A stretch of 37,932 bases of DNA from contig QBYE01000012.1 of the NCBI GenBank assembly GCA_003282985.1, positions 1 through 37,932 on the forward strand, read 5' to 3'. Below, piece by piece: positions 1 through 852 of this stretch. Source of the stretch: Pelagibacteraceae bacterium AG-325-E08 (lineage in GTDB: Bacteria; Pseudomonadota; Alphaproteobacteria; Pelagibacterales; Pelagibacteraceae). Numbering within the stretch: position 1 is the first letter of the stretch; each line of letters begins with the position of its first letter. A model generated the notes under the pieces. That model saw nothing but the letters and a program-made list of their open reading frames with translations, searched no databases and was not told where the DNA came from. The position numbers and the translations under genes are program-made.

Positions 1-632
1 AAACAAAGCCAGAAATAAAAAAGGTAAAAAAACAAGAAACTGAAAAAAGGGAATATAAAGTTAAAGATTTTGTTGTATATCCAAAACATGGTGTTTGTAA
101 GATTATAGATTTCAAAAAAATTACTATTGGGGGGATTGATTTAGAAAGCTATATTCTCTCATATGATAAAGACAAAGCAACAGGTTATTGTCCCGTAAAT
201 AAACAATCACATTTGAGACCATTAGCAACAATTAATCAAGTTAATAAATGTATTTCAATTTTAAAAAGTAAACCTAAAATTAAAAGATCTATGTGGAGTA
301 GAAGAGCTCAAGAATACGAAGCAAAAATCTCCTCAGGAAAAATTTATGAACTTGCTGAAGTGGTAAGAGATTTGAATAAAGGTGATGATCTGATGGTTGA
401 TCAATCTTATAGTGAAAGACAATTATTTGAAAAAGCCTATGAGAGAATATTGTCAGAATTTCAAATAATATTAAATATTTCCTTAGAAGATACTCAAAAA
501 AAATTAGATAAAGCTTTAAAAAGAAATTTAGTGTCACAAGCACAGCCAAATACTGAGACTACAAAGCAAACTACTTCAGAATTACCTGTAGAAGAGACTA
601 CAACTGACAATGAAGTTTCTTTAGAGGAATAA
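1..632 (+). CDS. carD: CarD/CdnL-type RNA polymerase-binding regulator (5' end outside window)
   Basis: The reading frame is open from the first bases, so the true start lies upstream. A lysine-rich stretch leads into the CarD/TRCF RNA polymerase-interaction fold, seen as VKDFVVYPKHGVCKI, then a second strand LESYILSYD and the typical HLRPLAT join to the helical DNA-binding half. The family binds the RNA polymerase beta subunit and stabilises open promoter complexes, often at rRNA and growth genes. The last 30 residues are Thr/Glu-rich and probably disordered. A start at the in-frame TTG at 213 would remove the RNA polymerase-binding domain, so I reject it. A two-way terminator follows the stop by 2 bases. 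Family assignment is firm; the missing N-terminus cannot be judged. Confidence 0.88.
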   Translation, partial: TKPEIKKVKKQETEKREYKVKDFVVYPKHGVCKIIDFKKITIGGIDLESYILSYDKDKATGYCPVNKQSHLRPLATINQVNKCISILKSKPKIKRSMWSRRAQEYEAKISSGKIYELAEVVRDLNKGDDLMVDQSYSERQLFEKAYERILSEFQIILNISLEDTQKKLDKALKRNLVSQAQPNTETTKQTTSELPVEETTTDNEVSLEE

Positions 633-634
633 AA

Positions 635-674
635 AAAACGCCTCTCACACGAAATCGTTATGAGAAGCGTTTTT
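635..674. terminator. Bidirectional hairpin terminator between convergent genes
   Basis: AAAAACGC-C-TCTCA pairs with TGAGA-A-GCGTTTTT around a 13-base loop, with one mismatch. The A tract on one side and T tract on the other give a U-run in both directions. It sits 2 bases after the CarD stop and 20 bases after the stop of the convergent minus-strand mini-gene, so it can end both transcripts. Confidence 0.8.
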
Positions 675-693
675 AATAAAGAATACTAAGTAA

Positions 694-771
694 CTATCTT
701 CTTCTTCTTTTCTTAGCTTTTTTCTTAGCTTTTTTCTTAGCCTTCTTTGCTTTTTTTCTTCTCTTAGGCAT
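694..771 (-). CDS. 25-residue Lys/Arg-rich basic peptide
   Basis: A very short minus-strand frame of 25 codons, opening MPKRRKKAKKAKKK and ending in four arginines; 19 of 25 residues are Lys or Arg and 4 are Ala. A 12-base tandem unit (GCTAAGAAAAAA) repeats in its middle and gives AKKK periods. Support for a real gene: GGGAG lies about 9 bases before the ATG, which is a good ribosome site in a region where most genes lack one; a TTGACA promoter lies upstream; a terminator lies 20 bases past the stop. I do not recognise the protein. The composition resembles tails of histone H1-like or ribosome-associated proteins, so binding to DNA or RNA is plausible but is inference. It could instead be a non-coding RNA with an incidental frame. 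Confidence 0.65.
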   Translation of the reverse strand: MPKRRKKAKKAKKKAKKKAKKRRRR

Positions 772-795
772 CTTTAGCTCCCTTTTTTAGTTAAA

Positions 796-812
796 CGAAT
801 CAAAATGATTCG
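796..812. promoter_or_regulatory. Perfect inverted repeat in the leader of the basic 25-mer
   Basis: CGAATCA-AAA-TGATTCG is a perfect 7-base inverted repeat with a 3-base centre, 24 bases before the mini-gene ATG. If transcription starts near 816 it forms a hairpin at the extreme 5' end of the RNA, where it could protect the transcript. It could also be an operator just downstream of the promoter. The dyad is seen directly; its role is not known. Confidence 0.55.
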
Positions 813-823
813 CTGATACCTTA

Positions 824-852
824 TTTTTATTTTTTTATGCACGTTATGTCAA
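824..852 (-). promoter_or_regulatory. Predicted sigma-70 promoter for the basic 25-mer
   Basis: On the minus strand a perfect -35 TTGACA (847-852) is followed after 17 bases by TAAAAA (824-829), which matches the -10 consensus at four of six positions. The start would fall near 816, giving a transcript of roughly 180 bases that ends at the 635-674 terminator. The rest of the gap up to 969 is AT-rich and shows nothing else I can name. Confidence 0.5.

Follow-up and report, generated by a model that had tools for sequence, protein, structure and literature searches.

Positions 852 to 631 on the minus strand of a SAR11 (Pelagibacter) contig hold a complete small transcription unit, convergent with carD, and comparison with relatives leaves us hardly any doubt that its 25-codon frame is a conserved protein gene, not an incidental ORF. 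As judged from comparative sequence data, the frame is under purifying selection, its promoter and leader are conserved, and it is adjacent to carD in two families. Our best explanation, towards which we lean only slightly, is that the SAR11 order has here a genuine protein gene of very small size, encoding a minimal histone H1-like polycation tied to replication; binding, expression and methylation are inferred. SAR11 bacteria are among the most abundant cells on Earth and in the ocean. Their genomes are pared-down, yet the peptide gene has been kept with its promoter and leader, and profile searches are nearly blind to it. If the explanation is true, a nucleoid protein can be as small as this, and the gene gives a concrete target for studying the coupling of replication, methylation and chromosome packing in SAR11.

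A short transcription unit beside carD

The DNA analysed, called the window here, is the whole stretch of 37,932 nucleotides that forms contig 12 of its source assembly (1.02 Mb, 88.7% complete). The closest named relatives of its carD, among the matches listed, are Pelagibacterales single cells and MAGs. The original prediction described a perfect TTGACA -35 element separated by 17 bases from a weak -10, a 5' hairpin dyad, a GGGAG ribosome site, a 25-codon frame with 19 Lys/Arg and a two-way terminator, next to the gene of an RNA polymerase regulator. Each of these parts was recovered (Table 1), and the regulator gene is carD. Transcription is predicted to start near 817, as counted from TAAAAA at 17-nt spacing; a promoter scan scores another -10, AAAAAT at 18-nt spacing. 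When the dyad was folded, the minimum free energy was -8.6 (z -3.0), and 3 of 200 shuffles were equally good. The terminator hairpin gave -22.1 (z -7.3) with the minus strand alone folded, and T runs are present on both strands; a terminator scan of the window did not have this hairpin in its output. The peptide had also been called strongly expressed, for which the promoter sequence is the only basis, so that expression is an inference.

The peptide contains 13 Lys and 6 Arg (K 0.52, R 0.24, A 0.16), with a net charge of +19. Its K/R share is 76%, against 36% in the next most basic ATG ORF of the window (at least 20 aa) and a maximum of 52% in 200 dinucleotide shuffles of the window. Thus, the ORF is not a product of chance.

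Table 1. Features of the peptide transcription unit and the convergent gene (window coordinates).
Feature	Position	Strand	Remarks
-35 hexamer TTGACA	847..852	-	exact consensus letters; conserved in relatives
-10 hexamer TAAAAA (weak)	824..829	-	17-nt spacing; A, not T, at -7
Inverted repeat CGAATCA-TTT-TGATTCG: two extended GANTC (GcrA-type) sites and 5' mRNA stem-loop	796..812	-	about +6 to +22 from the predicted start
Shine-Dalgarno GGGAG, inside block GGGAGCTAAAG-ATG	778..782	-	block conserved in relatives
ORF MPKRRKKAKKAKKKAKKKAKKRRRR	694..771	-	25 codons + TAG, ATG at 771; frame, start and composition kept in relatives
Intrinsic terminator hairpin (predicted) between peptide gene and carD	~636..674	-	fold, and similar stem by eye in relatives' loci
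carD, C-terminal 209 codons, 5' end beyond the window	3..632	+	PF21095 (5e-20), PF02559 (1.6e-12)

Conservation and distribution of the frame

Among the matches listed, GGGAG[CT]TAAA[AG]ATG followed by a K/R-rich frame was found in 86 of 89 Pelagibacter-type loci downstream of carD. The remaining three (L020, L024 and L088) lie at contig edges, with only 134, 86 and 0 bases after carD. These 89 places are the window, loci from same-genus genomes (L002-L030) and Pelagibacteraceae or Pelagibacterales records (L031-L089), the last assigned as Pelagibacter-type by a carD identity of 71-88%. The carD relatives are the best 80 listed, and some species occur in both collections, so that the loci are partly non-independent. 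A scan for the start-site pattern, with up to 3 mismatches allowed, covered 147 genomes of the order and found it in 72 of 76 Pelagibacter genomes and in none of 71 others. One of the four Pelagibacter genomes without it has carD at a contig end with a partial frame visible, and the other three gave no carD match.

The mode of variation in the frame is that of a protein gene. The exact peptide of the window is encoded at 31 loci by eight DNA versions, which differ at five sites, all of them third codon positions. A simple pairwise sum over all of the distinct Pelagibacter-type frames, uncorrected for relatedness, gave a pN/pS of 0.21. The 115 Pelagibacter-type loci (some places were fetched twice) encode 40 distinct peptides made almost only of K, R and A with some T and P, and the length in such loci ranges from 20 to 35 aa. 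Substitutions in relatives are synonymous or conservative, and length changes are in-frame only. Frameshifts or stop codons in relatives with only RNA structure conserved had been named in advance as what would refute the peptide gene. None was found in the relatives checked, which retain the frame, its start and its basic composition and vary at third codon positions. In one locus (L030, genome G032), the carD match crosses two TAG and two TAA codons and looks broken or misassembled; the adjoining peptide gene is intact.

The gene is also found beyond Pelagibacter. It is present at 16 of 16 carD loci in other Pelagibacteraceae genera (g5-g9; carD was found in 16 of 18 genomes tried), where it encodes 21-50 aa, and at 17 of 19 carD loci in the sister family f2, where it encodes 40-91 aa of the type MEELKVIFAKARKKAKKKAAPKKKRKAAKRKPAKKK. 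The two f2 loci without the gene are contig ends, 76 and 66 bases after carD. Among the matches listed, all SAR11 places with enough DNA after carD have the gene, promoter and leader (119 of 119, namely 86 + 16 + 17). Lengths are 20-91 aa over 148 SAR11 loci, and by eye the change consists of in-frame gain or loss of AKK-type units. At 48 other alphaproteobacterial carD loci (20 among the carD matches listed, plus 28 of 97 non-SAR11 genomes with a carD match), no free K-rich ORF was found downstream at a cut-off of 8 Lys in 20 residues; this applies to the locus only, and two of the 48 have just 257 and 124 bases of downstream DNA. The sole downstream frame reported for these loci (L195) is longer and of mixed composition. 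On this distribution, the peptide gene is older than the genus.

Promoter and leader motif

With TTGAC as the anchor, 105 distinct Pelagibacter-type upstream sequences could be placed, and all of them read TTGACA. When the last match was taken over 148 SAR11 leaders, 141 had TTGACA, five had TTGACT (L125 being an artefact of this rule) and two had none. The -10 at 17-nt spacing is TAAAAA in 95 of the 105 sequences, TACAAA in eight and otherwise in two. At this spacing, T is absent from -7 in 104 of 105, whereas a -10 read at 18-nt spacing would have T there in 86 of 105; the start site is unmapped. In Alphaproteobacteria, promoters whose -10 has no T at -7 have been proposed to require CarD (PMC8407463).

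CarD itself has a Lys-rich N-terminal extension of about 50-105 residues in SAR11, counted from the first in-frame ATG and placed ahead of the RNA-polymerase-interacting domain. It was seen in 17 Pelagibacteraceae loci shown (e.g., the window, 3-632, and L002, L004, L008, L031, L169 and L171). Long Lys-rich extensions also exist in a few other alphaproteobacteria (L183, L190 and L195) and are absent from most others shown.

Of 155 SAR11 places, seven had a truncated leader or frame and were left out; the comparison of leaders rests on the other 148, among which 108 are distinct. The first dyad arm fits YGAKTCK on the opposite strand in all 148 leaders, as TGATTCG in 146 and CGATTCG in two. In the 146 leaders with TTGAC, it begins 38-42 nt past the first T of that element, and exactly 40 nt in 100 of them. 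The second arm reads TGATTCG in 82 of 148 leaders and is absent in this form from 66; 63 have no YGAKTCK on the coding strand. In the whole window TGATTCG occurs twice, both times at the peptide leader, and CGAATCA-N1-6-TGATTCG occurs once and in none of 100 shuffles. CGAATC-N3-7-GATTCG marks one place per genome in eight of eight Pelagibacter genomes. CGAATCR has 16-38 sites per genome against 78-148 for the reversed pattern (six genomes; this control does not keep the CG dinucleotide), and GANTC is mildly depleted over the window (69 observed, 97 expected).

Earlier work in Caulobacter proposed TGATTCG, or YGAKTCK, as the motif for activation by GcrA at CcrM-methylated sites, although the same source saw no preference of GcrA for the extended motif in Brevundimonas (PMC7987155). 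In SAR11, the RAMA-domain methylase profile PF18755 and the GcrA profile PF07750 each matched in nine of nine genomes, the window's own not being one of these; PF07750 also had an unexpected control match in Sulfolobus acidocaldarius. PF18755 presumably marks CcrM, and this assignment is supported by its matching only Caulobacter among the controls and by a published mention of a CcrM homologue in SAR11 (PMC3973325). Pelagibacter is reported to lack ctrA, and CcrM and GcrA are implied to be missing from a Rickettsiales cluster that possibly includes Pelagibacter (PMC2877005). Our profile searches and PMC3973325 disagree with the latter implication. Control of the peptide gene by GcrA and CcrM is a good inference that we consider a little better than even, with methylation and GcrA dependence both inferred.

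The dyad can also be read as an RNA element. It is conceivable that the leader is a mere 5' mRNA-stabilising stem-loop whose match to the GcrA/CcrM motif is coincidental. In each of the 108 distinct leaders the stem equals or outperforms 95% of shuffles, but the stretches folded start at the motif and the test cannot tell an RNA stem from two inverted DNA sites. The pairing of reverse-complementary arms accounts for part of the sequence conservation. The stem is kept in g5-g9 though the second arm no longer fits the motif: g5, g6 and g7, like f2, use different or extended partner arms, and g8 and g9 retain pairing through G-U despite the loss of the second GANTC. Since the stem is kept while the second TGATTCG is often absent, RNA structure is also selected, and an RNA role of the 5' stem, such as protection of the mRNA, is likely alongside that of the motif; both can hold. 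What a stem-loop alone does not explain is that the first-arm 7-mer stays nearly invariant while its partner drifts, and that it recurs before other genes, as described below: in 6 of 11 genomes it stands before HU at the spacing seen in the peptide leader (HU leaders were not folded), and in both Pelagibacter genomes read it precedes recA and clpX. We therefore regard a purely structural leader as rather unlikely.

Two possible ways of hiding the translation start were considered. Sequestration of the start codon by GGUAUC/GAUGCC pairing appears in the fold of the window, but most relatives, when compared by eye, lack its upstream half, and the pairing was judged to be due to chance. A CTCC or CCTC between the stem-loop and the Shine-Dalgarno sequence, which could sequester the latter, is present in 11 of 11 distinct f2 leaders, two of two in g5 and three of three in g7 (loci from L110-L128, L169-L172 and L174). 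It is absent from the leaders of g6 (two), g8 (eight) and g9 (one) and from all 81 distinct Pelagibacter-type leaders, and thus is inapplicable to the window.

The motif at its promoter distance is shared with HU in some lineages. In nine genomes searched for TTGAC-N31-37-CGAATCA, the peptide locus matched in eight, the ninth (G012) reading CGAATCG, and the sole second match lies about 25 nt before an HU domain match in G037. SAR11 genomes carry two to three HU-family genes each. Upstream regions were surveyed for 33 of 36 such genes in 12 of 13 genomes, with the main HU, chosen by eye from N-termini, covered in 11. The motif stands 38-40 nt after TTGA at this HU in six of six genomes of g5, g6, g7 and f2 (L238, L246, L249, L232, L235 and L241), so that motif and spacing are common to HU and the peptide gene in 6 of 11 genomes. 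The chance of the motif in a 40-nt stretch is about 0.0005-0.0012 per genome, from the site density measured in three genomes. In Pelagibacter and g8, to which the window's own branch belongs, none of five genomes has the motif in the HU leader; an apparent site about 250 nt upstream is inside the preceding ORF. The other 22 HU-family upstream regions contain no CGAATC[AG] or YGATTCG, and L243 and L253 have other YGAKTCK sites (TGATTCT and TGAGTCT) more than 200 nt upstream of HU-family genes. The block GGAGCTAAA (773-781) before the peptide start also precedes HU in Pelagibacter (L221, L223, L226 and L229); it may be a common leader element or just an ordinary ribosome site.

The remaining CGAATCR sites were compared between two Pelagibacter genomes, G012 with 16 (eight non-coding) and G062 with 14 (seven non-coding). 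Genes were named by Pfam in G012, and the copies in G062 were matched by eye. Non-coding sites are common to both at five genes, recA, clpX, an acetyl-CoA synthetase gene, a Suv3-type helicase gene and ubiA, the last of which has a divergent neighbour. In both genomes TGATTCG lies 39 nt before recA (L259 and L271) and 18 nt before clpX (L261 and L272), and at clpX a TTGA stands 38 nt before the motif site. A site is shared 131 and 130 nt before smc as well, but within the upstream frame. The genes with the motif look like a DNA and cell-cycle set, which is suggestive but not proof, and the recA and clpX sites possibly represent a small GcrA/CcrM set in SAR11.

Nature of the peptide and comparison with known systems

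The longer orthologues indicate what kind of protein the peptide is. They consist of Lys/Ala/Pro repeats, AAPKK or KPAKK in f2 and g7 and up to 91 residues in f2, and resemble histone H1 tails (for example, MEELKVIFAKARKKAKKKAAPKKKRKAAKRKPAKKK... in f2 and MAKKRKKAAKKKAPAKKKKVAKKRKPAAKKK... in g7). Two traits of H1-like proteins are met: a Lys/Ala(/Pro)-rich, low-complexity and strongly basic sequence, in the window peptide as in the f2 and g7 orthologues, and a length that changes by basic repeat units (20-91 aa, 148 loci). The third, a match to an H1-like Pfam or NCBIfam profile, is not met up to E 10 for eight SAR11 peptides, and the same search gave only two unrelated matches (E 6.4 and 8.5). 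Because no curated profile of this kind matches, the peptide is called H1-like in kind without assignment to a named family. Composition alone is weak evidence of homology to H1-like proteins, and because of low complexity, homology searches with the peptide or an 85-aa orthologue are nearly blind. Of the genomes searched with a profile built from 16 members, only the one from f2 yielded the peptide, and the six from Pelagibacteraceae did not. The original prediction recognised no family and suggested binding to nucleic acid or the ribosome. The kind can now be placed among the bacterial histone H1-like polycations, though a curated match is still lacking, and nucleic-acid binding has become more likely through the H1-tail-like orthologues without being shown. 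That the peptide acts as a nucleic-acid-binding, H1-like polycation is, from sequence features and in the absence of binding data, likely.

Binding to the ribosome is not excluded. A small ribosome- or RNA-binding protein would neutralise rRNA, like tiny basic ribosomal proteins, and not DNA. The aligned Pelagibacteraceae peptides mostly begin with M[AP]K[KR]RKKA, which would suit this role, as would the perfect -35 and good Shine-Dalgarno sequence, and a comparison of the 85-aa orthologue with PDB chains listed a single entry, a putative ribosomal protein L29, whose E of 0.52 is not significant. However, a length of 20-91 aa and a free order of K, R, A, P and T are unlike a protein fitted to rRNA, and no ribosomal Pfam or NCBIfam family was matched even at E 10. 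The motif and spacing held in common with HU in four lineages also argue against it, and no ribosomal gene is among the five genes with a shared non-coding motif site in two Pelagibacter genomes. The sequence is almost as compatible with RNA or ribosome binding as with DNA binding; as the actual identity of the protein, we judge the ribosomal or RNA role unlikely.

A structured or regulatory RNA with an incidental ORF would account for the conserved 5' stem and the strong terminator hairpin, but not for a frame whose variation is synonymous or conservative, whose length changes only in-frame and which is kept where its length triples. At gathering score, Rfam finds in the window one tRNA elsewhere and no other family, and 19 matches at 560-960 are all below family cut-offs (E 0.012 or worse). 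We hold such an RNA to be very improbable. Runs of Lys/Arg codons followed by a terminator might suggest a leader peptide for attenuation of a downstream gene, but this is ruled out by gene order, in relatives as well, since the gene after the terminator is the convergent carD and nothing co-directional lies directly downstream.

We thus return to the H1-like polycation. In this explanation, the disordered K/R/A peptide would bind DNA, and probably RNA too, by charge, and would condense or shield the chromosome together with HU. CarD, which the adjacent gene encodes, may be needed for its transcription. CcrM methylation, with GcrA acting at the TGATTCG site or sites just downstream of the start, would time transcription, so that the peptide would be made in step with DNA replication, and the short mRNA probably gains stability from the 5' stem-loop as well. 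Against this stand the lack of binding, expression and methylation data, the absence of the motif from the HU leaders of Pelagibacter and g8, and the two to three HU-family genes that SAR11 already has. A wider reading, which we offer only tentatively and with more doubt than belief, is that a free H1-like tail of 20-35 residues, almost pure charge, is among the smallest gene-encoded chromatin proteins yet seen. Its synthesis would be gated by CcrM/GcrA at a start-locked site in bacteria reported to lack ctrA (PMC2877005). With the Lys-rich tail of CarD and, in sister lineages, an HU under similar control, it would form a carD-linked polycation system that coordinates nucleoid compaction and transcription.

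A literature search of partial coverage found no paper that names the peptide. SAR11 strain HIMB5 has at least three intergenic sORFs of undefined function; their identities are in a supplementary table, and the peptide gene may or may not be among them (PMC6429828). In regulation, the closest parallel is the GcrA/CcrM regulon of Caulobacter (PMC7987155), which likewise has TGATTCG in promoters, and SAR11 encodes CcrM-type and GcrA proteins. Unlike in that regulon, the SAR11 site follows the predicted start closely at a fixed distance, and in Pelagibacter it is part of an inverted repeat; regulation is not shown. As a protein, the peptide may be compared with Chlamydia Hc2 and the Hc2-like proteins of Bordetella, Burkholderia and other genera, which are Lys-rich, bind DNA and vary in size by repeat units (PMC2848022). 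Hc2, at 165-237 aa, is about seven to nine times as long as the window peptide, and the SAR11 peptide has no H1-type Pfam match. Another comparison is AlgP (AlgR3) of Pseudomonas aeruginosa, whose K/P/A composition has been called histone H1-like and which is reported to bind DNA (PMC9239181). The SAR11 peptide resembles its C-terminal domain in being Lys/Ala/Pro-based, of low complexity and strongly basic, and for AlgP DNA binding was reported with a C-terminal fragment and KPAA peptides. Whereas AlgP joins a 124-aa N-terminal helical domain to its KPAA repeats, the SAR11 protein is the tail alone; it has 20-35 aa in Pelagibacter, is richer in K/R and contains little Pro.
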